A DNA stretch of 64,000 nt, taken from positions 1 to 64,000 of the forward strand of contig QKEH01000109.1 of the NCBI GenBank assembly GCA_003252385.1, read 5' to 3'. A program made the translations under genes and the position numbers. The stretch comes from Bacteroidota bacterium. Lineage in GTDB: Bacteria; Bacteroidota; Bacteroidia; Bacteroidales; UBA10428. Positions 3,615 to 18,930 of the stretch are shown piece by piece. Under the pieces are notes generated by a model that was given only the letters and a program-made list of their open reading frames with translations, was not told the origin of the DNA and made no database searches. How positions within the stretch are numbered: the first letter of the stretch is position 1; the number at the start of each line of letters is the position of its first letter.

Positions 3615-4603
3615 AACGGGTTGGTGGTTAGTTCCGATAAAGTCACAAACTCCAAGTCCTGGCGACCGGCCAGCGCGGTGATCAAGGCGGTTACATTCTG
3701 CAGAATTCGCTGTGCACTGCCGGGAACCAATGAGTAGGGACTGGTACCCGGATAAATTTCGTTGCTGTGAAACATCATGACCAGGGTGTGCACATGACCA
3801 CTGCCATTGGCACGTTGGGTGAAGGCATTCAGATACTGCTGCATTTCGTGGGCCGTTGCATAGGTGGGCCGGAACCAGCGCAGATTTTTATTGGGGTTGG
3901 TTAACCGGGTAATAGCCACCCGCTGCCATTTGTGCAACGGATTCAACCGGCGTTTGAGTGCAGGCGGCAACGCATACAGCCACCGGTTGTATACGGCTAC
4001 CGGCGCTTCCAGAATCTGCAGGTTGCCTGAAACCCGGAAATCCTTTTCCGAGGGATGGTAGGGATGATAGGGCGCCCCCATATAGTGGATGCCGTGGCTT
4101 CGGTTGCGCATCCACCAGGTATCCGGCGTTACACTGGAATCGACCCGGTAGCCCAATTCCTGCAAAAAAACCAGGGTATGGCGGCTCAATGCAAAGCGTC
4201 CGGCCCGGAAGGAGGTGGGCTTAAAACTGAAAGTGTGCTGAAAAAGCCGGGTAAGGTTCTCCAGCTTCTGAAATTCGGCGGTTGCCGAAAGTTCATTCTG
4301 AAAGGTTTTGGTGAAGAACGAACTCATATTTTCATCGGGAGCAATAAACTCCGAATGCAAATGGGTGCCTAATTCCGCGCGATTGCCAAGTTTTTTAAAA
4401 TACGCTGCACAGGCTTCATGTTTCATCACTTCGGGGCTCAACAGGTAGGTAGGACGAATACGGTTAGCCTCAAAAACTGGTTGCAGGTTATGAGCCACCC
4501 CGTCAAGAATGTTGGTGAAACAAAAAGGCTGCTGTACACTCCAGCCTTCGCTTTTGTCGCACTCGGTATCCAGGGTTATGGCAATTCGGATTTTATTGGA
4601 CAT
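3611..4603 (-). CDS. Polysaccharide deacetylase-like protein (WalW-like)
   Basis: A 330-residue protein of the NodB/polysaccharide deacetylase fold. Visible signs are ITLDTECD near the N terminus (the Asp-containing motif 1 region), LGTHLHSEF (paired His of motif 2) and a late MMFHSNEI. No signal peptide is seen, so it probably acts in the cytoplasm or on a lipid-linked precursor, which fits a modification step during repeat-unit assembly. I chose the ATG at 4603; an upstream in-frame TTG at 4618 would add five residues. The gene overlaps its upstream neighbour by 11 bp and its downstream GT4 by ATGA. The substrate is inferred only from context. Confidence 0.7.
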   Translation of the reverse strand: MSNKIRIAITLDTECDKSEGWSVQQPFCFTNILDGVAHNLQPVFEANRIRPTYLLSPEVMKHEACAAYFKKLGNRAELGTHLHSEFIAPDENMSSFFTKTFQNELSATAEFQKLENLTRLFQHTFSFKPTSFRAGRFALSRHTLVFLQELGYRVDSSVTPDTWWMRNRSHGIHYMGAPYHPYHPSEKDFRVSGNLQILEAPVAVYNRWLYALPPALKRRLNPLHKWQRVAITRLTNPNKNLRWFRPTYATAHEMQQYLNAFTQRANGSGHVHTLVMMFHSNEIYPGTSPYSLVPGSAQRILQNVTALITALAGRQDLEFVTLSELTTNPL

Positions 4604-5684
4604 GTCCGGAACGATCAAAAATTTGAATTAATCTGGCGTACCACCAATACGAATTATTGACAATATATCGGTTGTTAACCCGCGTGGTTGGTGTCCACTT
4701 ATCCTTTTCGCCACCTTCTCCCCGCATAAAATTGTATTCATATACGCCTTCGCGGTGCAGATGCTTTAATAGCCGAAATGTTAAATATTTCCCCACCGAC
4801 AGATCTAAAAAACGGCTATCTATTGCCGTATTCCAGGCATAATAGGTAGCATTCTCCACAAATCCGATTTTATAGGCTGCAATCTCGTTATCGATTAGCA
4901 GCCAGCTGGTAAATAATTTCTTATTGGTCATGTTATGGGCAAGAATGGTATGGAGAAAAAGTTTTTGCTTTTCGGAGGCATAGGAAGGTCTTCGCCCCAG
5001 CATTTCCTGACGGCATGTATGCATTGTACTAATTAGTTCTGCCATTTTTGTAGCAGGCCAGTCCGGATTGAATAACACCTCCAGATTCCTGGCTTTATTT
5101 TCCAAGGCATTGCATTTTCTTCTGACACTTTTACGACTGATCTGCCGTTCAATATCGCTCCACTCGCGATGCAAGTCGATGAAATAGTATTTCCCCTTTT
5201 GATGGATCATGGAGTTAAAATGACTTTTGATCTCTTCACGAATAATCGCATTACCCGGATATTTTTCGTGCAAATCATCGAGAATAAGCAGGTTCCATTT
5301 ACGCTTGGTTTTTAACCAGTTGATGGCTTCGCGCACCACGTCCTCCAGATATTGGCTTTTGGCCGGAACAAAGCAAAAATCCTGCTTGTTGTAGGCCAGA
5401 AAACGTACCCGGATGAAAGGAATAAAGCCCTTCCGTTTTTGTTTGAGAAACATCAAAGGAAAATACCCTGCTACCTCATCCCGGCATTTCACTTCGAGTA
5501 TCAAGGGCTCCCACTCTTGTTTCAGAAAGGCCAGCCAACTGTTTATCCATATTTGTTCTGTCTGAAATTGTGGTTGACAATTTTGAATAAAGTCATTCCA
5601 TGATTCAGGAAGGCTGTTATTGATCTCAATTGCCCGGATTGTAAATTGGTTATCCTGACTCATACCAACTTTTTGCAAATCCAT
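4593..5684 (-). CDS. GNAT/FemAB-like acetyltransferase (CelD/BcsL type)
   Basis: A 363-residue protein resembling the acetyltransferases annotated as CelD/BcsL in exopolysaccharide clusters. A C-terminal GNAT-like half contains LLIDNEIAAYKIGF and the block YYAWNTAIDSRFLDLSVGKYL, followed by YEYNFMRGEGGEKDKW, which is typical of this branch. I place the start at the ATG at 5684, sharing one base with the upstream stop (TAATG). A longer frame from GTG at 5747 would run 64 bp into the methyltransferase gene. The likely role is N- or O-acylation of a sugar precursor, but the acyl donor and target cannot be told from sequence. Confidence 0.72.
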   Translation of the reverse strand: MDLQKVGMSQDNQFTIRAIEINNSLPESWNDFIQNCQPQFQTEQIWINSWLAFLKQEWEPLILEVKCRDEVAGYFPLMFLKQKRKGFIPFIRVRFLAYNKQDFCFVPAKSQYLEDVVREAINWLKTKRKWNLLILDDLHEKYPGNAIIREEIKSHFNSMIHQKGKYYFIDLHREWSDIERQISRKSVRRKCNALENKARNLEVLFNPDWPATKMAELISTMHTCRQEMLGRRPSYASEKQKLFLHTILAHNMTNKKLFTSWLLIDNEIAAYKIGFVENATYYAWNTAIDSRFLDLSVGKYLTFRLLKHLHREGVYEYNFMRGEGGEKDKWTPTTRVNNRYIVNNSYWWYARLIQIFDRSGHVQ

Positions 5685-6580
5685 TACTTGGTTACGGCCT
5701 GATTCAGGCGGCGATAGAAACGGGTATTCCGAAAGGAATAATTCCACAGCTGATTCCTGCCATACATCGTTTGACTATTTACACGGAATACCAGCTTGAG
5801 TATACGATTCAAGATTCGAACAGACCATGGCCGGATCGATTTCTGACTATTCCGTGTACTGCTTTGATATTTAGCAGAATAATCGGATTGAATGGGATAC
5901 GGGTTAAAAAGGCTGACATGCTCCTTTTTTATAGCATGTACCATAATAATAACCGGACTGCTGTTTACCAGTCCTACACGTGACCTCACTTCTACCGGAT
6001 CGGCTACCTGAAAATAGTTTCTTTGAGTGGATATCTCCAATGCTGGATAGTTGTGCTGTTCCAAAAGAATCTTACCTGTCTCAAAACCATTGGATGCGGA
6101 GAAAACCCTAAAAAATAATTCGGGGCTGAACTGATAAAAACCATGGCCCATGTGGTTGTTTGCCATGGTAAAGATAAACAGGTGCCCTCCCGGCCGCAGC
6201 AGATTCATGTAATTCTGCAAGGCCATGGGAACGTTGAAAATATGTTCGAGTGTGCCCCCGTCTATCACAAAATCGTAAGTATTATAAAATGCTTCAGGCA
6301 ACGGACAGTTTAAGTCATGTTGGATGGTGCAGCCCTGATAATCGGAAAAGTCCAAGGAATCAACCCGCTGGCAATTCAGCAGGACGCCAAGTATTTCGTC
6401 GGAATATCCGCCACACGGAACCTCAGTTAAGGAACAAAGCCCGTTTTGTTTTGCAAATTGGCCTACCTCATCCCTGTCAGCATAAAGGCTCAGCCGACCT
6501 ATGGTGATCAGGTTCTTCGATTCTGCACTTTTGGCCACCGAATTGAATATAAACTGCAAATGATTGATCGTTAATCCCAT
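5684..6580 (-). CDS. SAM-dependent methyltransferase-like protein
   Basis: A 298-residue protein with a class I methyltransferase-like core. YDFVIDGGTLEHIFNVPMAL reads like the post-motif II acidic region, and LRPGGHLFIFT is the usual motif III-like strand and turn. The canonical glycine-rich motif I is not obvious: the N-terminal part (LITIGRLSLYADRDEV) has an atypical SAM-binding loop. The C-terminal 60 residues are basic and rich in Arg and Asn. It is embedded in the glycan cluster between a GT4 and an acetyltransferase gene, so methylation of a sugar or glycan end is plausible. Confidence in the fold is moderate; the substrate is unknown. Confidence 0.65.
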   Translation of the reverse strand: MGLTINHLQFIFNSVAKSAESKNLITIGRLSLYADRDEVGQFAKQNGLCSLTEVPCGGYSDEILGVLLNCQRVDSLDFSDYQGCTIQHDLNCPLPEAFYNTYDFVIDGGTLEHIFNVPMALQNYMNLLRPGGHLFIFTMANNHMGHGFYQFSPELFFRVFSASNGFETGKILLEQHNYPALEISTQRNYFQVADPVEVRSRVGLVNSSPVIIMVHAIKKEHVSLFNPYPIQSDYSAKYQSSTRNSQKSIRPWSVRILNRILKLVFRVNSQTMYGRNQLWNYSFRNTRFYRRLNQAVTK

Positions 6581-7812: not shown

Positions 7813-8965
7813 GTACCAGTTGTTCAAATTTGGCCGTGTACTTCCTGATATTTTGCTGCGGATGCGCTGCAGCCAATACATCGTTATAGGCCTGTTGAAT
7901 CAATGAATTGCTATCTTCCTGATTATATATAAGTTCCAGTTTGTTTCTCCAGCCTTCAACGGTATTGTTGCATAGGTAACCATTCACGCCTTCGGTAATC
8001 AGATTGGAAATGGTAGCCACATCCGATGCCAGAATGGGAACTTTCGAAGCCATGGCTTCCCAAAGAGCCTTCGACTGGGGTTCGTAATCGACCGGGTGGC
8101 AATACAGACTGGCCTGAGCCAGTTCCTGCTGAAGCTGCGTGCGGCTCAGAAAGCCCTTAAAAATAATTTGCGACTCCAAACCATACGCCTTTACCCGGGC
8201 TTCGAGTGACTTCCGTTCCGGGCCCTCGCCCACAAAGGTCAGTTTAATGCCCGGCTGGTTCAATTGATGCAGCGCCTCCACCAGCAAATCCTGCCTTTTG
8301 CGTTCCGAAAACCGCATGATGCAAACCAGTTGAAAAACCGAACCGCATCGCTGCGATAGCGGATAATCGAAAAAGCTGGGATGTATTCCTATATCGTGAA
8401 TGAAGCTGGTAAACTTCAATTTCGAAACATTTTGGGCAATCTCAAGGTACGACTCCCGATGTTGTTCCGATTGAAAATTGATACAATCGGCGTGGGTAAA
8501 ACCGTACTCGCTTCGCCGGACGCGTTCCGGATTCGGCGTTGCACCACGCTCCTTGCGGGTAACCCCTGCCACCCGGTGCATCAGTTTGAAGCGGAGTTGT
8601 TTTTGTTCCCGCAAACGCAGCAACTCGTAAGTTACCGATCCAAAAGCATAGATCGCATCAATATCGTATTGACGGATAATGGCATAAAAAACCCGCTGCT
8701 GTTGCCGGTGAAGCAAATTCCGAGACCACCGGCGAAGTATTGGCATCCCCAGGGTAGGAAGTTTCAGCGGCCGGTATTGAACCACTTGGACACCGCTCAC
8801 CTTACATTGCTGTATGGCTTGCACCTGTTTCGGGTTCTGAGCCAGATAGACCACCGTATGATTAAGGCATGCCATTTCCTCAGCCATTACGGACATTGAG
8901 GTCTCGGCACCACCCACTGCCGCTCCGCTGTATACCGACTTATTGGAAACAAAGAGAATTTTCAT
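7799..8965 (-). CDS. GT4 family glycosyltransferase
   Basis: A 388-residue GT-B enzyme. It begins MKILFVSNKSVYSGAAVGGAE, with the glycine-rich acceptor-side loop, and ends with LTFVGEGPERKSLE and the donor-binding EAMASKVPILASDV region. The start at 8965 gives an ATGA overlap with the upstream GNAT gene; a longer frame exists but would cover most of the end of that gene. A short C-terminal basic tail is present and no membrane helix is seen. Together with its neighbours it is likely one of the sequential transferases that build the repeat unit. Sugar specificity is not readable. Confidence 0.86.
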   Translation of the reverse strand: MKILFVSNKSVYSGAAVGGAETSMSVMAEEMACLNHTVVYLAQNPKQVQAIQQCKVSGVQVVQYRPLKLPTLGMPILRRWSRNLLHRQQQRVFYAIIRQYDIDAIYAFGSVTYELLRLREQKQLRFKLMHRVAGVTRKERGATPNPERVRRSEYGFTHADCINFQSEQHRESYLEIAQNVSKLKFTSFIHDIGIHPSFFDYPLSQRCGSVFQLVCIMRFSERKRQDLLVEALHQLNQPGIKLTFVGEGPERKSLEARVKAYGLESQIIFKGFLSRTQLQQELAQASLYCHPVDYEPQSKALWEAMASKVPILASDVATISNLITEGVNGYLCNNTVEGWRNKLELIYNQEDSNSLIQQAYNDVLAAAHPQQNIRKYTAKFEQLVHEKG

Positions 8966-9555
8966 GCTGCTTGCTGAATGGTACGTTGAAAGATCCGGAA
9001 GTAGCGTTTGCCAATTCGCAGCACATAATACGTCCGCCGGTGTGCCCATCCCAGTTTGGTAAACACGCGCCGGGCGGCCCGGTTTTGCTTCTTGGTAATA
9101 ATAATCCCCCTGGCTTTTCCCTCTCCAATTAAATAGTGTTCCAGAGCACGCAGGCAGGCCGAAGCCAGTCCTTTGCCGGAGAATGCTTCGAAGGTACGCA
9201 GGGTCGAAAAATACACCTCGCCCGGCTTCAGGGATATTTGCAGGTTCATTTCGCGGTTGAAAGGCCCGTTATAACTGAAAGTCTGGTAGCAGGCCAGCTC
9301 GTTACCGGGGGTAGTCAGAATGGCGGCATCGTGATCGGTTACCGAAGCCATACGATCGACCATGGCATGGTAGGTGGCGGGTACCGAAGCTTTGTATTGC
9401 GCCAACGCCCTACTGGGAACCACCTGAAACCCGAACTGCGCAGCCAGTTTCGAATCGACTTCATCAGGTGGAAGCAGGGTCAGGTCTTTTTCGTACCAGC
9501 AGTGTATGCGCAGGCGCAAGCGGTTGCGCAGGGTGCTTGTAAGTTTATTCGACAT
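8962..9555 (-). CDS. GNAT family N-acetyltransferase
   Basis: A 197-residue protein with GNAT features in its second half: LSLKPG-like and FSTLRTFEAFSGKGLASACL, where the GKGLA segment matches the acetyl-CoA pyrophosphate-binding Q/RxxGxG/A loop, then ARGIIITKKQNRAARRVFTKLGW, matching the N-x-x-A-x-x-x-[FY]-x-x-x-G-[FW] end motif. It overlaps the SGNH gene upstream by 11 bp and the GT4 gene downstream by ATGA, so it belongs to the same translation-coupled run. It may acetylate an amino sugar used in the glycan. Its place next to the MBOAT/SGNH block could also tie it to acyl decoration. Confidence 0.75.
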   Translation of the reverse strand: MSNKLTSTLRNRLRLRIHCWYEKDLTLLPPDEVDSKLAAQFGFQVVPSRALAQYKASVPATYHAMVDRMASVTDHDAAILTTPGNELACYQTFSYNGPFNREMNLQISLKPGEVYFSTLRTFEAFSGKGLASACLRALEHYLIGEGKARGIIITKKQNRAARRVFTKLGWAHRRTYYVLRIGKRYFRIFQRTIQQAA

Positions 9556-10468
9556 GTGCAGGTATTGCTACATGGAGGTAATGGATCACACTGTCGGCCA
9601 GTATTTTGGCTCCGGCATCGTTTACATGATCCTGATCGAAGAAGTAACGGTCGTCGGAAAAATACGAACGGAAATTAAGCACCGGCACCCCCGACGCCAA
9701 AAAGCGCTGCGATACCGAGGGATAATCCATCTGATCGACCCGGTTTCGATACCGGCTCGACAATGGGTAGACAATGCCGGTAACCGGAATCTGGTGCTGG
9801 CGACACATACTCAGTATACTATCGGTGCAAGCCAGCAGCGACTTTGCTGCAGGTGCATACTGCGATTTTACCCGCGACTGGATGGATTGCTCCTGTTCCT
9901 GAGGGGTATAGGCTGCCCATTGTTTTTCGACATAATGGTACTCACGGGTACGCATACGGGCTTCCAGAAAATTGTAGAGAAGCAGCGAGTTCGAGGCCTC
10001 CATCATGGGCACGTATCTTTTTACATAGCGCATGTACAGGTATTGTGCCCGGTTAAAATTCAGCAGCTCCTTGTAGGTGCGGAAAGTACTCAGCAGAATG
10101 CTGGTTTCAATATTGTTGGCCCGGGTACGGTAATCGGATACCACGTGGTCGTCTGCAATAAGCAGGATGCGGTCAATCTGAATTCCCCGCCGGATGCAAT
10201 AGCTAATTTTATTGTACATGTCGAAATAGCTGTCGCTGGGGTAACAGAACCTTTTAAATACCGGGTTAGGCCAATAATCGGCCGGTATGGCATTGGCATG
10301 GGAATCGCCCAGAACCAGCACCGGTATATGTTTCTCGCTTTTCAGCTGGCTTAGAGACTGCAAGTACTTTTCATACAGGTTGGGCTTAAAGAAAATCTGA
10401 TACAGCACCAGATTAATGGCCAGAAGACCAGCCAAATACCACATGGTGTTACGAAGAAACCCTTTCAT
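9545..10468 (-). CDS. Membrane-anchored SGNH-like protein (DltD/AlgJ-like), copy 2
   Basis: A 307-residue protein with one N-terminal transmembrane helix (residues about 8-27) and an extracytoplasmic SGNH-type domain: block I GDSHA at residues 54-58 (D55, S56) and a C-terminal DQDHVNDAG carrying the Asp/His pair. That arrangement matches DltD, AlgJ and related partners of MBOAT acyltransferases, which complete acyl transfer to a polymer outside the membrane. It overlaps the MBOAT gene at 10468 as ATGA, strongly suggesting that the two proteins work as a pair. A similar protein lies at 11908-12843 on the other side of the same MBOAT. The exact family name is not certain. Confidence 0.75.
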   Translation of the reverse strand: MKGFLRNTMWYLAGLLAINLVLYQIFFKPNLYEKYLQSLSQLKSEKHIPVLVLGDSHANAIPADYWPNPVFKRFCYPSDSYFDMYNKISYCIRRGIQIDRILLIADDHVVSDYRTRANNIETSILLSTFRTYKELLNFNRAQYLYMRYVKRYVPMMEASNSLLLYNFLEARMRTREYHYVEKQWAAYTPQEQEQSIQSRVKSQYAPAAKSLLACTDSILSMCRQHQIPVTGIVYPLSSRYRNRVDQMDYPSVSQRFLASGVPVLNFRSYFSDDRYFFDQDHVNDAGAKILADSVIHYLHVAIPAHVE

Positions 10469-11904
10469 CAGAAACGGAAATAAATAAACTCGTAATCGGA
10501 ACTAAAATTGCCAAAAACGAAAATGAGCAGAATGAGGCTGTAGGTAATCATCCAACGAACATACTTTGGGCGGGGAGCCAAAAAGGCCAGAACATGATCC
10601 TTTTCGCGTTGCAACCATTCCAGCACTATAAATACCAGGAGAATCAGGTTCATTTTATTTTTCAGGACGGGCCACTCCAGCCAGTTACCCTGCCCCATGT
10701 ATTGCAGGTAATGCCAGGCATCGCCCACACTTTCGGCTCTGAAAAAAATCCAGGCCACACAGGTAAGCAGAAAGGTAACCAGCACCAGGAACCCTTCGCG
10801 GATACCCGGCAGCCACCGGCCGGTAGCCACTGTATCGGTATGCCGGCGATGCCGTCCGGAAAGGATGAGCGGCAAGAAGTACAAGGCATTTAAAGCGCCC
10901 CAAATTACAAAGGTCCAGCTGGCACCATGCCACAAACCGCTAACCAGAAAAATGATGAAGGTATTGCGCACCACCGCTGCTTTACTTACCCGGCTGCCTC
11001 CAAGCGGAATGTATACATAATCGCGAAACCAGGTGGTGAGGGAAATATGCCAGCGTCGCCAAAACTCGGCAATATCGCGTGAGAAATAGGGAAAGCGGAA
11101 ATTTTCCATCAGCTCAAAGCCAAACAGTTTGGCCGTGCCCCGTGCAATGTCGGAATAGCCCGAAAAGTCGCCATAGATTTGAAAAGCAAAATACACCGCC
11201 CCCAGCAGCAGCGAAAGCGCGTTGAACCCTGCCGGATGGTCAAAAATCTGATCGACATACAGGGCACAATTGTCGGCCACCACAATCTTCTTAAAGAAAC
11301 CCCAAAGCATGATGCGTAAACCCGTGTAGGCTGTTTGCTCATTAAACTTGCGTTGGGTAAGAAACTGGGGCAGCAACTGCGTGGCGCGTTCAATAGGCCC
11401 GGCCACCAGTTGGGGAAAGAAGCTGACAAAAGTGAAAAAGGCGAGTGGGTTTCGGGTGGGCTCCAGCTTCCGGCGGTACACATCAATGGTATAGCTCAGG
11501 GTTTGGAAGGTGTAAAAACTAATGCCCACCGGCAGTACAATATTCAGGCGTGATGCATGAAAGGTACCTCCCAGGAAGGTGAAAGCATTCGCGAAAGAAT
11601 CGATAAAAAAGTTGAAATACTTGAAATACACCAGCATGCCCAGGTTAGCAGCCACACTGATTCCCAACAGCACCTTTCGTTTTTTGGGTTCAGGCGTATT
11701 TGCCAATTGCAGCCCTATCAGATAGTCGATAGCAGAACTGATAACGATTAGCGACAGGAAGCGCCAGTTCCACCAACCATAAAACACGTAGCTGGCCACC
11801 AAAAGCAGCACGTTGGCTCCTTGGTGCGAATACCGGTTCAGGATCCAGTACAGGACAAAAACCAGGGGCAGGAACAGCGCGAAATCGATGGAGGTAAACA
11901 GCAT
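10468..11904 (-). CDS. MBOAT family O-acyltransferase (AlgI/DltB-like), copy 1
   Basis: A 478-residue multi-pass membrane protein. It has the AlgI/DltB hallmark blocks FPQLVAGPIERATQLLPQF, FQIYGDFSGYSDIARGTAKLFG and DFWRRWHISLTTWFRDYVYIPLGG, and the catalytic-type His at residue 326 within SGLWHGASW. By family knowledge these enzymes move an acyl group across the inner membrane to a polysaccharide or teichoic acid. It is flanked by two SGNH genes (3 bp gap on one side, ATGA overlap on the other). A second MBOAT with the same length and blocks lies at 16036-17466. The donor could be the ACP encoded a few genes upstream. Confidence 0.92.
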   Translation of the reverse strand: MLFTSIDFALFLPLVFVLYWILNRYSHQGANVLLLVASYVFYGWWNWRFLSLIVISSAIDYLIGLQLANTPEPKKRKVLLGISVAANLGMLVYFKYFNFFIDSFANAFTFLGGTFHASRLNIVLPVGISFYTFQTLSYTIDVYRRKLEPTRNPLAFFTFVSFFPQLVAGPIERATQLLPQFLTQRKFNEQTAYTGLRIMLWGFFKKIVVADNCALYVDQIFDHPAGFNALSLLLGAVYFAFQIYGDFSGYSDIARGTAKLFGFELMENFRFPYFSRDIAEFWRRWHISLTTWFRDYVYIPLGGSRVSKAAVVRNTFIIFLVSGLWHGASWTFVIWGALNALYFLPLILSGRHRRHTDTVATGRWLPGIREGFLVLVTFLLTCVAWIFFRAESVGDAWHYLQYMGQGNWLEWPVLKNKMNLILLVFIVLEWLQREKDHVLAFLAPRPKYVRWMITYSLILLIFVFGNFSSDYEFIYFRF

Positions 11905-11907
11905 GCC

Positions 11908-12843
11908 TTACTGTTGAATCAGCTGATTGTGAATGATGGTTTGGATGATATCGGTATTCATCAGGCGGATACCATCCTGGTTCAAATGGGAAACATCGTA
12001 GAAGAGGGTATCGGGGAAATTACAACGTTGGTTGTAGTCGAGGTAGTTGCAATCCTCTTGACAGATCAGGGCATTGAACTCATCGAGGTTATCGCATTGT
12101 TTCCGTTTGGCGGCGGGTATGGGCGACTGAAAAACCACCAGGGGAATATGACGCTGATGCAACAAGTCACACATTTTTTGATAGTACCGGATCTGACGGG
12201 AACTAAAATTCAGGTGAAAAGGGTCAAACGTGGTTTTGGCCGAATACCGTCCGTACTTTCGTTCCACATAGCCGGCCTTAACGTAAGTATCGTCTTCCAT
12301 AACTGGGGGTTCAACCACCTGGGTTGCCTGACCGGTCAGGTGCTGGTACAGGGAAAAAATCAGCACGTTGATTACCCTGATATCGGCCGATGCCAGCGCC
12401 CGTTTTACCACCGGCCAGTTGGGAGGCATGTTCGACAGCACATCCATCAGCGACCATATCTGGGCATTGTCGAACACCTCGGGGTTAGCACTGTACAGTA
12501 CCAGCCCGGGCTGAAGCGAATCTACATACCGGTTGAGCAGGGTATACGAAATTTCGGGGGTCTGCATTCCGGAGCCCATATTAAAAACCCGTATCCGGTT
12601 TTCTTCAAAAATACGGGGATCCACTCCCTTATAGGCATGGGAAGAACCCAACACCATAACATCAACCTGCGGATAGTTCTTCACCTCCTGAAGGCGGGTG
12701 TGCATAAATCCGGCAATGCGCTTATAGGGCAGGTTGGCGTAATACCGCGAATGAGCCAGCAGGGTTCCGGACACGATCACCACACCCACATAAACCGGTA
12801 CGAGAATAAGCAGAAGCCAAAGAATTCGTTTCAACAGGGTCAT
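11908..12843 (-). CDS. Membrane-anchored SGNH-like protein, copy 1
   Basis: A 311-residue protein with one N-terminal membrane helix (residues about 7-30) and an outer SGNH-like domain. Block I reads GSSHA (G66, S67, S68, H69) with Ser in place of the usual Asp, and the terminal block is DVSHLNQDG with Asp and His. It lies 3 bp before the MBOAT gene and about 70 bp after the SDR gene. It differs clearly in sequence from the SGNH protein at 9545-10468, so this is not a recent duplication. A role as the extracytoplasmic acyl-transfer partner of one of the two MBOATs is inferred from context. Confidence 0.7.
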   Translation of the reverse strand: MTLLKRILWLLLILVPVYVGVVIVSGTLLAHSRYYANLPYKRIAGFMHTRLQEVKNYPQVDVMVLGSSHAYKGVDPRIFEENRIRVFNMGSGMQTPEISYTLLNRYVDSLQPGLVLYSANPEVFDNAQIWSLMDVLSNMPPNWPVVKRALASADIRVINVLIFSLYQHLTGQATQVVEPPVMEDDTYVKAGYVERKYGRYSAKTTFDPFHLNFSSRQIRYYQKMCDLLHQRHIPLVVFQSPIPAAKRKQCDNLDEFNALICQEDCNYLDYNQRCNFPDTLFYDVSHLNQDGIRLMNTDIIQTIIHNQLIQQ

Positions 12844-12915
12844 AGGTCGAACTATTTTAGTGGTGCCTCAAGGGGTGTAAGACAGGAAGCAATTGCAATT
12901 ATCCGAATACGGTCA

Positions 12916-13638
12916 CTAAACCACATGTACCCCGGCATTGATAATCAGGTTAATCCCATTGATCTGCTGCGAGCAGGTGGTCAGGTACTGCACCGTATCA
13001 GCCACTTCGTCCGGGGTTAACAGGCGTTTCAGCGGATGGCTTTGGGTGAGCTGTTGCTGAATGCGTTCGTCGGTACCGGCAGTGAGCCGGGTGAGCATAA
13101 AGGCCGGCGAAATGGCATTGGAAGTGATGTTGAAAGCACTGTTCTCGGCAGCCCACGATTTGCTCATCGAAGCCAGGTACGCCTTTCCGGCCACATATTC
13201 CGACCATCCGAGCGGCGGGGTATCCACCAGAGCCGAAGTGAGCAGGGATATTATTTTGCCAAATTTCTTTTTACGAAACTGAAGGATCGCCCTTTGGGTA
13301 AGCTGTAAAACGGGCAGAATATTGGCAGAAAAATGAGCGGAAAATACACCGGGATCCAGCTTATGAAAGTGTTTCTGAATGTTTTCGGTGGCAAAGGCAT
13401 TATGGATCAGCACATCCAAATCGGCCTGCTCCACAAAAGCCAGAAGCGCTGCCATGGCTTCCTGATCCTGAAAATTGCACGAAATGCCCCGGCAGTTGCT
13501 CCACTCGTGCTCCAATTGCCGGGCTTGTTGTTCCGACGAATGGTAGGTAAAGTACACTGTATTGCCGGGCACCGATGCCAGTCTGCGGGTAATGGATTCG
13601 CCCAATCCCGATGCCCCGCCAGTAATTAATATTTTCAT
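12916..13638 (-). CDS. Short-chain dehydrogenase/reductase (FabG-like)
   Basis: A 240-residue classical SDR: the NAD(P)-binding TGGASGLG near the N terminus, the catalytic Tyr148 and Lys152 in YVAGK, and the late NAISPAFMLT segment. I chose the ATG at 13638, which forms an ATGA overlap with the upstream MaoC gene; an in-frame ATG two codons earlier (13644) is possible. By family it would oxidise or reduce a hydroxyl/keto group. Its place after FkbH, ACP and MaoC genes suggests that the substrate is an ACP-bound acyl group rather than a nucleotide sugar. That is an inference. Confidence 0.85.
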   Translation of the reverse strand: MKILITGGASGLGESITRRLASVPGNTVYFTYHSSEQQARQLEHEWSNCRGISCNFQDQEAMAALLAFVEQADLDVLIHNAFATENIQKHFHKLDPGVFSAHFSANILPVLQLTQRAILQFRKKKFGKIISLLTSALVDTPPLGWSEYVAGKAYLASMSKSWAAENSAFNITSNAISPAFMLTRLTAGTDERIQQQLTQSHPLKRLLTPDEVADTVQYLTTCSQQINGINLIINAGVHVV

Positions 13639-14027
13639 AAGCATCCCAGTGTTAATTTCCCCCGGGCCACTTTCTGTTCCAGCTGATTTACAAAATAGTA
13701 CCGAAATTCAGCCACCCGTACCGATTCATGATAATCTTCCACCTCGGCAACCAAACGAAGGTTGTCGTTTCGGTATACCGGGTGGGTAAACTGGATTTGC
13801 TGGGTATGTAAAATCACCTCGCGGGTAGGCAGGCATTCTCCCACAAAATGCGACAGAAACCCGTTGAGGATATTCCCGTGCATCACCACATCGCGAAATC
13901 CTTTTTCGTGGGCATAGTCTGCCTGGGTGTGCAACGGATTCCGATCCTGAAACGAACGAATAAAACCCTGGTAAACGCTATCGCTTACCCTATATTCCTG
14001 CTGGTACCGGTCGCCCTTTGCAAACAT
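13635..14027 (-). CDS. MaoC-like hotdog-fold hydratase/dehydratase
   Basis: A 130-residue single hotdog-fold protein. The stretch QDRNPLH (D28, H33) followed by GFRDVVMHGNI carries the hydratase 2 Asp/His pattern of MaoC and (R)-enoyl hydratases. I start it at the ATG at 14027, one base after the ACP stop; a TTG six codons earlier would overlap the ACP gene. It would hydrate or dehydrate a short ACP- or CoA-bound acyl chain. The coupling with ACP, SDR and FkbH genes points to tailoring of an acyl group later transferred to the glycan. No ketosynthase gene is present nearby, so chain extension is not expected here. Confidence 0.82.
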   Translation of the reverse strand: MFAKGDRYQQEYRVSDSVYQGFIRSFQDRNPLHTQADYAHEKGFRDVVMHGNILNGFLSHFVGECLPTREVILHTQQIQFTHPVYRNDNLRLVAEVEDYHESVRVAEFRYYFVNQLEQKVARGKLTLGCL

Positions 14028-14028
14028 G

Positions 14029-14268
14029 TTATACTCGTTTACCAATTACTTCGCACATTTCGCCTACGTTCTTCCAACTGCTTATTTCGGCAGCTGCAAA
14101 GCGTAATTTAAAATGCTTTTCGATGGCCACCACCAGCTGAATATGAGTGAGCGAATCCCAATCGTCCACATCATCGGCGGTGGTTTCGTGTGCCAGTACT
14201 ATTCCCGGATTGTCGAGAACATCGCGGAAAATACGGGTTACCTGGTTTAAAATTTCAAGGCTCTCCAT
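14029..14268 (-). CDS. Acyl carrier protein
   Basis: A 79-residue acidic carrier protein. The phosphopantetheine site is DSL with Ser39 (DDWDSLTHIQLVVAIE), followed by the usual helix. It starts by sharing one base with the FkbH stop (TAATG), and the MaoC gene follows after 1 bp, so the three proteins are probably made together. In FkbH systems the carrier receives a glyceryl group derived from 1,3-bisphosphoglycerate; in Dlt systems a similar small carrier (DltC) feeds an MBOAT. Either reading makes this protein the probable acyl donor for the cluster's MBOATs. It is unlikely to be the housekeeping fatty-acid ACP given this location. Confidence 0.9.
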   Translation of the reverse strand: MESLEILNQVTRIFRDVLDNPGIVLAHETTADDVDDWDSLTHIQLVVAIEKHFKLRFAAAEISSWKNVGEMCEVIGKRV

Positions 14269-15998
14269 TAGGCATGTATTTTAGGGGTTATGTAGCATTC
14301 TTTGGGTTGGTAGTCCTTAAGCAGTAAGGTCCAAAAAGATCCTTCGGGCCGAAAACCGAGGCGCTGAAAATGATCTTCCACCATCGCATTTTTTGGCGTG
14401 GCAATGTACTCTCCCACCAGCGAGGTAAAGCCGCTTTCCGCAGCCCGGTTCACCAGGGTATTCAACACAAAATGTTCCATGCTGCGCTTCAGCACCCGGC
14501 AACTCATGATCCAGGTGTCAATAAACGCCGAGTGGGTGGTATGTTTCCTCAGAATCACCGTGCTGATCAGTCCGTAATCGCCGTACTTATCTTCCAGCGT
14601 AAAGGATAGTGGTAAACAATCGGGGTCGTTGGCCAACTGCTGTATGTCCTCTTCGGTATAGCGGATGGTACGCAGGTTAAACTGATTGGAACGCTGCGTC
14701 AGTTGCGCCACCCGGGGGGTATTAAATGCATTGAAAGGTTCTACCGCCGCCACCATGTTCAGGCTTTTCAGAAATTCCGTTTCGTTGGTAAACTGCTTTT
14801 TCAAGCCTTCGCGCCGGGCTTCCTGCTGATACTTTTCCGTACGCCCGTCGTCGTCGCGGGTAAACGAAGCCGTTTCGAACAAATTCAGGGTGCGCAGGTA
14901 ATCCATATACTCCGCCGGATCGTCGGGCAATTCGGGAACGGTAATCGCCGGAATATGCGTTCGCACCATGTTTCGTTCAAAGGGGTTATCATCCAAAAAA
15001 ACCATGGAATCGAAACCTATATTCAAGATCTGCTGAATCTCCATAATAGAATCGGCCTTGTTGTTCCAACTGGCTACAAATACCGCAATGTCATCGAGGC
15101 GCAGCACCATGTCGGGATGCTTCTCGAAGGGTTCCCGGGCAACCGCCTCATCGTTTTTACTGCACACGGCCAGTATAATGCCACGCTGTTTCAATTGTTT
15201 CGCCCAAAGCTGCAACTCGGTAAATGCTTTTCCAATGCCCAGGTCGCCAAGCTGAATGTTTTCCATACCGTCATCACCGATTATACCTCCCCAAAGGGTA
15301 TTGTCGAGATCCAGAATCAGGCACTTTTTAAACTTCCCCAACAGCGACTGCAGCACATCTACCGTATGACGGGCTGCAATCGGAAGGAAGTCGATACTCA
15401 GATACAATTCAGTGTTAACATAAATTTTAGTATCGGTGATAAATCCATAACCATACCGGGATTGGAGCACATTGAAATCAAGAATATGAAGATTTTTCAG
15501 TTTTTGCGCCAGGTTCATAAGCCCCCAGTTAAGGGTTCGCAACTGATACAGAAATGAGGCGTTGGTCTTATTGGCGTAGTGGCCAAAAACCGCATCGTCC
15601 AGTTCCGGAAAGTTACAAAACAACACGTTGCCATGCAGGCGGGCAAGCAGGGTTTCGTAGAGTTCTTGTACTTCGCCCAAAACGGTCTGGCTCCATTCGA
15701 ATCGATTTTCCGGCGTACAGTTCCCAAAACGTTGCATGAGTTTACGAGTGCATTTAAAAATCACCACTACTTCGGGCCGAAACCGATACAATTCCGACTC
15801 AGGATCAAAAATCTGTCGTTCTATCTGGTTGTAATCGGCTTCAAACACCTCGATATTCAGGGAAACCTCAAAGCCATATCCCCTGATCGCCTGTGCATAC
15901 ATTTGGGTGGCCGAGTCGCCCAACAGGGCAAGCCTCACCACCCGGAGGCCGGAAAAGTCCTTCTTTAAATTTTTTCTGAGTTGCTGGTAGGTCAACAT
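14268..15998 (-). CDS. FkbH-like HAD-family protein (glyceryl-ACP synthase type)
   Basis: A 576-residue protein in three parts: an N-terminal region with LALLGDSATQ (SGNH-like, residues about 25-40), a HAD phosphatase core with DLDNTLWGG (Asp230 and Asp232) and VFLDDNPFERN, and a C-terminal GNAT-like domain (about 400-560). This is the FkbH layout. Studied FkbH proteins take 1,3-bisphosphoglycerate, dephosphorylate it and load D-glyceryl onto a carrier protein. The carrier gene follows directly (TAATG). It lies 37 bp downstream of MBOAT copy 2. The family also occurs in O-antigen and flagellin-glycan islands, so a sugar-decorating acyl group is the most likely product. Confidence 0.9.
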   Translation of the reverse strand: MLTYQQLRKNLKKDFSGLRVVRLALLGDSATQMYAQAIRGYGFEVSLNIEVFEADYNQIERQIFDPESELYRFRPEVVVIFKCTRKLMQRFGNCTPENRFEWSQTVLGEVQELYETLLARLHGNVLFCNFPELDDAVFGHYANKTNASFLYQLRTLNWGLMNLAQKLKNLHILDFNVLQSRYGYGFITDTKIYVNTELYLSIDFLPIAARHTVDVLQSLLGKFKKCLILDLDNTLWGGIIGDDGMENIQLGDLGIGKAFTELQLWAKQLKQRGIILAVCSKNDEAVAREPFEKHPDMVLRLDDIAVFVASWNNKADSIMEIQQILNIGFDSMVFLDDNPFERNMVRTHIPAITVPELPDDPAEYMDYLRTLNLFETASFTRDDDGRTEKYQQEARREGLKKQFTNETEFLKSLNMVAAVEPFNAFNTPRVAQLTQRSNQFNLRTIRYTEEDIQQLANDPDCLPLSFTLEDKYGDYGLISTVILRKHTTHSAFIDTWIMSCRVLKRSMEHFVLNTLVNRAAESGFTSLVGEYIATPKNAMVEDHFQRLGFRPEGSFWTLLLKDYQPKECYITPKIHA

Positions 15999-16035
15999 TG
16001 GGTTTCTCTCCGTTTATTTTTGGAGCCTGAACCGG

Positions 16036-17466
16036 TTAAAACTGAAAGTACACAAAGGGAATGGTGCCCATGTAGCCAAACACTCCAATGAGCGAAACGA
16101 TAAAACCATAACAGGCATAACGGATCCAAAAAGGAACCTTTGCCTGCGGCGCCAGCAGCACACATTCCTGCTTTTGCGTCAACCCTTCCAACACAAGTAG
16201 AAACACAATAAAAACAGGCAGCAACTGTACACTGCGGAAATCGCTTAGAATGGAAAGGGAAAATATCCCTTTCACATAGCCGAAGGCCTGAGCCGTGGAT
16301 GCCGATCGGAAGAAGATGAGGCTAAAACTGAAAAAAGCAAAGGTAAATCCCATACCCAGGGTATAGCTGAACCATGCCGGTAATTTGGAAATCAAATTTT
16401 TACGATACTTTCGGGTAAGCAATTCGGCCGAAATGGCTACCCCGTGCATCAAACCAAAAAGGATAAAATTCCAGTTGGCTCCATGCCATAATCCCAGAAT
16501 AAAAAAGGTGATGACAACCGAAAGTACTACCCCGCTCCGATTCCAATAGCGCATGCGAATTACCAGCGGCGTATAAATGTATTCGTTCACCCAGGTAGTT
16601 AACGAGATGTGCCACCGACGCCAAAAATCGGCGATATCGGCAGCAAAAAACGGAAGGGCAAAGTTTTGTTGCAAATGGAATCCGAACAAGCGGGCCGAAC
16701 CAATAGCTATATCGGAATACCCCGAAAAATCGCCATACACCTGAAAGCTGAACAACACCGAAGCAATCACCAGGGTACTGGCATTCAGGCTGGAATAATG
16801 GGCAAAAGCATCGTTGACGTACACCGCACAGTTATCGGCTATGACCATCTTTTTAAACAACCCCCAGATAATATACTTGATGCCCACGCGTATCGACTCG
16901 GACTGAAAGGATTTCGCCTGGCTGAACTGAGGAAGCAAATGGGTGGCCCGTTCAATAGGACCGGCTACCAACTGCGGAAAGAAACTTACGTAGGTGAAAA
17001 AGGCCAGCGCGTCCTTTCCCGGCTTGAGCTTATTCCGGTACACATCTATGGAATAGCTCATGGTCTGAAAGGTATAAAAGCTGATCCCCACCGGCAAAAT
17101 GATGTGCAAGCTACGTACATTCAGGTTTTTCCCAAAAAGGGTGAAAGCATCGGCCAGGTTTTGCGCAAAGAAGTTGTAGTATTTGAAAAACAGGAGCATC
17201 CCCAGGTTCACCACGATACTCACCACCAGCAGCGCTTTGCGTGTTGCAGGGTTGGTAGTGCTTCCCATCCGGTAGCTAGCCCAAAAATCGACCAGCGAGC
17301 TAAAAGCAATCAGGATCAGAAAGCGTGGATCCCACCAACCATAGAAAAAATAGCTGGCCACCAGCAACAGAACATTGCGGATCTGAAGCCACTTGCCGGG
17401 TATCAGCCAGTACAGGCAAAATACCACCGGGAGAAAAATCGCAAAATCTAACGAATTGAAAGACAC
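16036..17466 (-). CDS. MBOAT family O-acyltransferase (AlgI/DltB-like), copy 2
   Basis: A 476-residue multi-pass membrane protein with the same blocks as the copy at 10468-11904: FPQLVAGPIERATHLLPQF, FQVYGDFSGYSDIAIGSARLFG, DFWRRWHISLTTWVNEYIYTPL and a catalytic-type His328 in LGLWHGANW. The start is a GTG at 17466; I see no better ATG. The two copies diverge widely outside the motifs, so they are likely to serve different acceptors or acyl groups. It precedes the FkbH-ACP-MaoC-SDR genes and has no SGNH gene directly beside it; one of the two SGNH proteins downstream may serve it. Confidence 0.92.
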   Translation of the reverse strand: MSFNSLDFAIFLPVVFCLYWLIPGKWLQIRNVLLLVASYFFYGWWDPRFLILIAFSSLVDFWASYRMGSTTNPATRKALLVVSIVVNLGMLLFFKYYNFFAQNLADAFTLFGKNLNVRSLHIILPVGISFYTFQTMSYSIDVYRNKLKPGKDALAFFTYVSFFPQLVAGPIERATHLLPQFSQAKSFQSESIRVGIKYIIWGLFKKMVIADNCAVYVNDAFAHYSSLNASTLVIASVLFSFQVYGDFSGYSDIAIGSARLFGFHLQQNFALPFFAADIADFWRRWHISLTTWVNEYIYTPLVIRMRYWNRSGVVLSVVITFFILGLWHGANWNFILFGLMHGVAISAELLTRKYRKNLISKLPAWFSYTLGMGFTFAFFSFSLIFFRSASTAQAFGYVKGIFSLSILSDFRSVQLLPVFIVFLLVLEGLTQKQECVLLAPQAKVPFWIRYACYGFIVSLIGVFGYMGTIPFVYFQF

Positions 17467-17478
17467 AACAAACGAAAT

Positions 17479-18930
17479 TTATCGGGTAACCAACTGCGGC
17501 AGTGAGTATTCCTTCACGTACTGACCATCGGTAAAATCGCCTTCGTTTTCGGAAAGCTGCACCGTATGCAACCCATAGTACTGGGCAAAATCCATATTGC
17601 CGTGATACAACGAATCGACCCGAATAAACCGGCTGCGCCGGGCAATCGGATATTCTACACTAAAAGGTTTGATAAGCAGCGACTTGTGGCTGTTCCTATA
17701 GGGCTCTACCTGTTCCAGTATGGCGGTCATCTCTTTTTTAATGACCACCGACCGGCTGGTATGCTGATACAGCATGAAAATAAAAAAGCCAATGAGGGCA
17801 TGAGCCAGTATACCCGAAGCATAGCGTTGCAACTGGATGTAAGGAAATTTCTCCTTCAGGAAAAGCAGAATTTTAGCATAAAACAGAAAGAGAAACAGCA
17901 CCAAGAAAACATCAAAATAGATTTCGGTACGCATACGAGCCACCCTGGGAAAAACCGTGAGCGGAACAATGGTGGCTAAAGCAGCTACCAACCACTTAAC
18001 ATAGTCGGCTTCAAAAAGTCGGGTACTTTTATTTTTAAGCTGAAAGTGCGGCGAAAAAACAATTACCAGTGCCACCAGCAGGGTAATCACAATAAGCAGG
18101 TTGGCATGACTGACATACTGAATGAGCAACGTTTTGTAATTCCCCAGCAGGAGCAATGGATGGTACTCCATGTGTTCATCGGGGTAGAGCGAGGCTCTTC
18201 CTTGAATTCCCGGAGCCAGCACTAAAACCAGGAAGCCGGCCAGAGCTCCCAGCAGATAAAACCCCTGTTGCCGTAAGGGTGCTCCAAATTGCTTGTTACG
18301 CAGTTGGGTTACCAGGGCATCGTATATTAAAAGCGCCACAATTCCAAAACTCAGGTTCTGCATGGTGTTGGCCGCAACAAAAGTAAACACAAACTGCAAC
18401 ACTCTATGGAAATAGGAGGTATCGGACGAAGTGCGGTGCTTTACATAATACAGGTACCAGGCTACAAATACCATGGCGTTGAAAGAATAGTACCCACCGG
18501 TAATCCAATACAGGGTCGATCCCAGATTACGGATCATCCCCAACCAGAGCATAGCCAGAATAAGTACCCAAACATAGAAACGATTTACCGCTTTGGAACC
18601 CACGGCTTGTATTTGAAGCACAACCACCATCAAATAGGACAGCAGCAGGAAACCACTGGTCCATACCAGACTGGCTACAGCCGGAGTGGAAAACTTAAGC
18701 AAATGGTTCTGTACCAGGTTGCTGAGTGCAAATGCCCGGCCATCGAGATGACGGTAGAAATTCAGGGCGTAGTCAAAAATCCGGTCAAACTTGGCCAGGG
18801 CAAACTTGTGCCCGTAGTCGTCGCCATACCACCACGATATGGAGCCCAGCACAACAAAAAGAACGAAAGCGATCAAGGACAACAGAAATCCACTGTTCAA
18901 CAGGTTGGTTTTTTTCATGGATAGAGGCAT
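17479..18930 (-). CDS. Multi-pass membrane protein, DUF6056-like
   Basis: A 483-residue polytopic membrane protein with roughly ten hydrophobic stretches. Near the N terminus it has WWYGDDYGHKFA and later LGSTLYWITGGYYSFNAM. The pattern of an acidic DDY/DDYG loop after the first helix and a YWITG motif recalls DUF6056 and other GT-C-like membrane proteins, but I cannot confirm a catalytic site. The last 60 residues are hydrophilic. It overlaps the upstream GT4 stop (TAATG) and precedes MBOAT copy 2 by 12 bp. It could be a polyprenol-dependent glycosyltransferase or another membrane step in glycan assembly; the function is unassigned. Confidence 0.65.
   Translation of the reverse strand: MPLSMKKTNLLNSGFLLSLIAFVLFVVLGSISWWYGDDYGHKFALAKFDRIFDYALNFYRHLDGRAFALSNLVQNHLLKFSTPAVASLVWTSGFLLLSYLMVVVLQIQAVGSKAVNRFYVWVLILAMLWLGMIRNLGSTLYWITGGYYSFNAMVFVAWYLYYVKHRTSSDTSYFHRVLQFVFTFVAANTMQNLSFGIVALLIYDALVTQLRNKQFGAPLRQQGFYLLGALAGFLVLVLAPGIQGRASLYPDEHMEYHPLLLLGNYKTLLIQYVSHANLLIVITLLVALVIVFSPHFQLKNKSTRLFEADYVKWLVAALATIVPLTVFPRVARMRTEIYFDVFLVLFLFLFYAKILLFLKEKFPYIQLQRYASGILAHALIGFFIFMLYQHTSRSVVIKKEMTAILEQVEPYRNSHKSLLIKPFSVEYPIARRSRFIRVDSLYHGNMDFAQYYGLHTVQLSENEGDFTDGQYVKEYSLPQLVTR

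Follow-up and report, generated by a model that had tools for sequence, protein, structure and literature searches.

A carrier-protein-fed MBOAT/SGNH acylation pathway, which we favor with rather more confidence than doubt, is the best explanation for a run of nine genes in the window, the 64,000-nucleotide stretch of a Bacteroidota genome (182 contigs, 3.9 Mb) analyzed here. The best-supported composition of the carrier-fed unit is FkbH, an acyl carrier protein (ACP), MaoC, SDR, the first of two MBOATs (MBOATa) and, most simply, the first of two SGNH proteins (SGNHa).

All nine open reading frames lie on the minus strand in the order given by an earlier sequence-only reading (from 17466 down to 8962; Table 1), and profiles, motifs and one fold match support their labels. 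That reading had described one overlapping run: three of the eight junctions are gaps (3, 37 and 72 bases), and the other five are overlaps of 1 to 17 bases. For MaoC, the ATG at 14027 is a more probable start than the TTG at 14045. FkbH scores 314 bits against TIGR01686, for which the cut-off for FkbH glyceryl-ACP synthases is 147, and the two MBOATs score 87 and 106 bits against PF03062. Family profile searches also back the identities of the ACP (PP-binding), MaoC, SDR and GNAT. Profile support is weak for the SGNH proteins, one having no Pfam match and the other falling under the cut-off; both carry catalytic-type motifs (GSSH or GDSH, together with DxxH). Around the run extends a long glycan locus, also on the minus strand, that encodes glycosyltransferases and methyltransferases together with a Wzt-type ATPase and an ABC-2 exporter, and genes for a Wzz-kinase and polysaccharide export lie farther out, beyond the glycan locus. 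The gene for a 483-amino-acid protein (17479-18930), hydrophobic by reading and with no Pfam or NCBIfam match, lies in the same run, 12 bases upstream of MBOATa. A FemAB-like GNAT protein (PF13480) is encoded at 4593-5747, inside the glycan gene run.

Table 1. Genes of the run in the order of transcription, with window coordinates and the basis of each label
Feature	Coordinates	Strand	Basis
MBOATa, 476 aa, putative carrier-fed membrane acyltransferase	16036..17466	-	PF03062 and DltB matches, segment YIYTPLVIRMRYW, FVYFQF (Tyr473)
FkbH, 576 aa, HAD-type phosphatase and GNAT-like glyceryl transferase domain	14268..15998	-	TIGR01686, alignment, model and fold search
Acyl carrier protein, 79 aa, Ser39 in WDSL	14029..14268	-	PF00550, alignments
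MaoC-type hot-dog dehydratase, Asp34/His39 dyad	13635..14045	-	PF01575, R-hydratase structure matches, conservation
SDR reductase, FabG-like, Asn108/Tyr150/Lys154	12916..13644	-	PF13561, FabG-type models, conservation
SGNHa, 311 aa, N-terminal helix then SGNH domain	11908..12843	-	GSSH and DVSHLN, model, DltD/PatB fold matches
MBOATb, 478 aa, generic, PLGGSR turn, FIYFRF (Tyr475)	10468..11904	-	Tree, profile scores, segment, motif
SGNHb, 307 aa	9545..10468	-	GDSH and DQDHVN; closest relatives come after generic MBOATs
GNAT acetyltransferase, overlaps SGNHb	8962..9555	-	PF00583

Our main sample consisted of 80 close FkbH loci from named genomes, mostly of Bacteroidota, to which almost all named FkbH relatives belong. 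An ACP gene is found near FkbH in 79 of these loci and an MBOAT gene in 64; the remaining 16 loci lack a nearby MBOAT. The genes usually lie on a single strand in the order FkbH, ACP, tailoring genes, MBOAT and SGNH. Pedobacter hartonius, Flavobacterium lotistagni and Mucilaginibacter sp. OK098 are examples of bacteria that carry a homologous module. Because FkbH, ACP and MBOAT recur in most of the related loci, their grouping is far beyond chance. In a sample of 295 genomes of the class, 32 have an FkbH match; among 14 close loci fetched from this sample, 11 have an ACP and seven an MBOAT, five of the latter with MaoC.

The residues expected to charge the carrier are also conserved. Asp230 and Asp232 of the HAD part of FkbH and Cys500, presumably the glyceryl-carrying cysteine of this family, are invariant in 21 sequences (15 close ones, including that of the window, and six distant ones). 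Ser39 of the ACP, already singled out in the earlier reading, sits in a WDSL motif and is invariant among 60 aligned ACPs. When the ACP was searched against its own genome, it was the sole match, which means that such a search misses distant ACPs, for example that of fatty acid synthesis. A distant lineage of FkbH, with 30-38% identity to the FkbH of the window, is found in four loci (L045, L046, L049 and L050); MaoC and SDR accompany it there, as a rule together with an ACP, no MBOAT was detected, and it may serve N-acylation. MaoC-SDR lies beside the distant lineage in four of six loci.

Both MBOATs of the window have the WHG histidine and a C-terminal FXYXXF motif, as expected of bacterial MBOAT/SGNH systems. 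In PatA the tyrosine of this motif is acylated, and in the Dlt pathway it is DltX that contributes the motif (PMC12148441). Generic MBOATs are common, being present in 238 of the 295 genomes, and in our tree most FkbH-adjacent MBOATs form a clade apart from them, with some smaller side clades. The main difference between the two types lies between the RRWHISL and WHG motifs: all 34 generic MBOATs have a shorter turn with 'PLGG' or a near form, whereas a longer form, 'PLxI..[FM]R[DN]' or other, is found in 54 of 55 FkbH-adjacent MBOATs and in none of the 34 generic ones. In DltB the same stretch holds residues modelled to contact DltC (PMC9338922); we placed the numbering of Streptococcus thermophilus DltB by applying a four-residue offset. 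Compared by sequence, the DltC contact site has retained V, I and M in the MBOATa segment YIYTPLVIRMRYW, whereas MBOATb reads YVYIPLGGSR there and lacks the longer segment. In a further set of MBOAT loci, which partly consists of FkbH loci, a carrier gene is near five of seven MBOATs without the turn versus two of 37 with it. A further check agrees: L070, a locus with FkbH, ACP and VOC, encodes an MBOAT of the longer form, which one tree places inside the generic clade.

The rule has exceptions in both directions. The MBOATs of L033 and L037/L114 are linked to FkbH and ACP yet carry the generic PLGG turn, and they either use CoA or dock the carrier differently; those of L185 and L201 have neither the turn nor a carrier gene nearby. 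MBOATa itself branches outside both the FkbH-linked and the generic clades, and its profile score is nearer the generic type (581 versus 506 bits). We therefore ruled out the tree as a basis for placing it and assign it by its short segment and by gene order. On this basis MBOATa is likely to be fed by the ACP, and it is the only one of the two that looks carrier-fed; MBOATb is probably a generic, CoA-using acyltransferase. The separate fragment L165:1-3850, which has no FkbH on it, lines up an AMP-ligase-like fragment, a 300-amino-acid protein, an ACP, an MBOAT and an SGNH-like protein; this MBOAT, too, lacks the PLGG turn, and the set may load the carrier of an MBOAT in a third manner.

The MBOATs are adjoined by SGNH proteins with catalytic Ser and His motifs, again as in bacterial MBOAT/SGNH systems. 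The predicted model of SGNHa (mean pLDDT 89) has DltD as its best PDB match and also matches PatB. Its relatives come after both MBOAT types and sequence is thus not decisive for its pairing with MBOATa; from gene order, we lean towards SGNHa as the partner of MBOATa. The closest relatives of SGNHb come after generic MBOATs, and it is the probable partner of MBOATb. Since only MBOATa has the DltB-like segment and MBOATb is generic, the run is probably composed of two acylation units. The single nine-gene block of the sequence-only reading was consequently rejected: MBOATb, whose turn is of the generic kind, clusters with generic MBOATs and, probably with SGNHb, would form a separate unit, probably of the acetyl-CoA type. 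GNAT, which had been counted as a block member, overlaps SGNHb, yet no link between it and the FkbH module was shown.

The genes between carrier and MBOAT vary from locus to locus and may determine which acyl group is transferred. Among the 80 loci, MaoC and SDR stand together within 5 kb of FkbH in 25; a VOC protein (PF13669, Glyoxalase_4) is encoded in that range in 21 loci and a SAM methyltransferase in 14. Only one locus has both VOC and MaoC (Fisher P-value = 2e-4, not corrected for relatedness). In the window, the MaoC and SDR genes lie between those for ACP and SGNHa and overlap their neighbors. The Asp/His dyad of MaoC, whose structure matches are R-hydratases, and the Asn/Tyr/Lys residues of SDR are kept across loci; VOC proteins keep His, Gln or Glu at positions that we read as metal ligands. 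Judging from family chemistry, VOC would invert C2 of the glyceryl group and the methyltransferase would yield a methylated form. MaoC and SDR could act on some other acyl group; that they act on the glyceryl group loaded by FkbH is, in our view, likely. Since the two enzymes retain their catalytic residues and recur as a pair, lactyl appears more likely as the final decoration than glyceryl, the group that the earlier reading had put forward, and we give lactyl as the actual product an even chance. A D-lactyl starter derived from FkbH is known from bryostatin. In three other FkbH loci (L115:12151-13939, L125:13371-15127 and L128:6533-8298), MaoC is accompanied by a pair of proteins that by eye resemble split transketolase halves, and L125 and L128 additionally carry an aldo/keto reductase relative.

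From these observations we infer the acyl group, the acceptor and the contact between ACP and MBOAT as follows. FkbH would move D-glyceryl from 1,3-bisphosphoglycerate onto the ACP as a thioester, and we consider glyceryl loading of the ACP by FkbH highly probable. MaoC would dehydrate glyceryl-ACP at C2/C3 to the enol of pyruvyl-ACP, which SDR would reduce to lactyl-ACP. The ACP would then dock on the DltB-like segment of MBOATa, and the acyl group would cross the membrane to the C-terminal tyrosine (FVYFQF). Finally an SGNH protein, most simply SGNHa, would transfer it from this tyrosine as an ester to the glycan made by the locus and exported. An ester on the exported glycan is a reasonably likely outcome.

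The same carrier-fed route could transfer glyceryl itself, with MaoC and SDR working on another substrate or in a minor branch. An HMM-based tally gives 22 loci out of 80 in which FkbH, ACP and MBOAT occur with none of MaoC, SDR, VOC or methyltransferase nearby, so that in this subset glyceryl is a plausible end product. N-linked glyceroyl groups moreover occur on bacterial glycans, including those of Tannerella (PMC9912281, PMC10609480); the papers that we found on the biosynthesis of the Tannerella group do not mention FkbH. For the window we regard glyceryl transfer as unlikely, given that its MaoC and SDR overlap their neighbors, are a recurrent pair and have conserved catalytic residues. 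A more distant alternative, which we hold to be still less probable, is that FkbH, ACP, MaoC and SDR feed the cytoplasmic N-acylation of an amino sugar, for example by the GNAT at 8962, and that both MBOATs are ordinary O-acetyltransferases standing there by chance. Lactyl and glyceroyl amides are known on bacterial glycans, MBOATs are frequent in the class and the 16 loci without a nearby MBOAT would fit; in most loci, however, the MBOAT directly follows the ACP, and these MBOATs share with MBOATa the distinct carrier-type segment.

Polyketide clusters are the best-known setting of FkbH proteins, and a small polyketide or tetronate-type pathway, in which a carbon chain would be built with a starter or extender unit from FkbH, would agree with the KASIII-like proteins read from sequence near FkbH in L063, L076 and L093, all without MBOAT. 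Among the window genes scanned, however, we found no ketosynthase, as the sequence-only reading had noted, and no acyltransferase domain or AMP ligase, and the recurrent partner of FkbH and ACP is the MBOAT. A polyketide role, which we rejected for want of a ketosynthase among these genes, is very improbable. In tetronate pathways, FkbH and a free-standing ACP produce glyceryl-ACP (PMC7489565, PMC4979870). There and in methoxymalonyl-ACP pathways, the group enters polyketide carbon or is built into a ring by a FabH-like enzyme, whereas in the window its likely acceptor is the MBOAT and no ketosynthase or FabH-like enzyme accompanies the FkbH-ACP pair among the genes scanned.

The proposed carrier-fed unit of the window resembles the Dlt pathway (DltA, DltB, DltC, DltD and DltX), which D-alanylates teichoic acids. 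As read here from the genes, the two share a carrier thioester feeding an MBOAT, a tyrosine shuttle, an SGNH protein finishing the transfer and, in MBOATa, a DltB-like segment. Unlike Dlt, the window has FkbH in place of the adenylation enzyme DltA, putative tailoring on the carrier by MaoC and SDR, a shuttle motif that is part of the MBOAT itself, where Dlt has the separate DltX, and an exported glycan locus of the Gram-negative type. No AMP-binding domain of a DltA-type enzyme was found among the window genes scanned; the two MBOATs score 158 and 140 bits against the DltB equivalog model TIGR04091 (cut-off 375) and hence are homologs rather than equivalogs; and the DltD family PF04914 has no match in the genome, with positive controls, SGNHa being alike in fold only. 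For these reasons the module is not a Dlt system by membership, yet it appears to work like one. The proposal that FkbH takes the place of DltA and charges the ACP for an MBOAT-SGNH pair is well supported by the recurrence of the module, the catalytic residues, the MBOATa segment and the shuttle motif. O-acetylation of the PatA/PatB and AlgI type shares with the window an MBOAT with a fused FXYXXF motif and an SGNH protein (PMC12148441), but it uses acetyl-CoA and no carrier. MBOATb and SGNHb fit this type, whereas MBOATa, standing in a carrier module, fits it poorly.

The FkbH family is already known in Bacteroides through BF1531 of Bacteroides fragilis (PDB 3slr), which shares 54% identity with the FkbH of the window across the N-terminal and phosphatase part; this structural-genomics entry covers the N-terminal part and gives the protein no name beyond uncharacterized. 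In the open-access literature we found no description of an FkbH protein feeding an MBOAT for the acylation of envelopes or glycans, and a 2025 study states that MBOAT/SGNH pathways besides Dlt have no carrier protein (PMC12148441).

We consider it slightly more probable than a coin toss that FkbH-ACP-MBOAT modules, common in Bacteroidota and scattered in other phyla, are a widespread second class of carrier-fed envelope acylation that puts glycolysis-derived hydroxyacyl esters on surface glycans. Swappable enzymes acting on the carrier (MaoC-SDR for lactyl, the VOC epimerase for the opposite glyceryl isomer, the methyltransferase for a methylated form) would diversify the groups, and decoration would be tied to glycolytic flux. 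If so, the view that Dlt alone uses a carrier (PMC12148441) would have to be widened to a class that is charged from a glycolytic intermediate, and FkbH-ACP genes in Bacteroidota glycan loci without a polyketide synthase would be accounted for. A short sequence feature may then separate carrier-fed from CoA-fed MBOATs, and new ester groups would be predicted on the surface glycans of gut and environmental bacteria.
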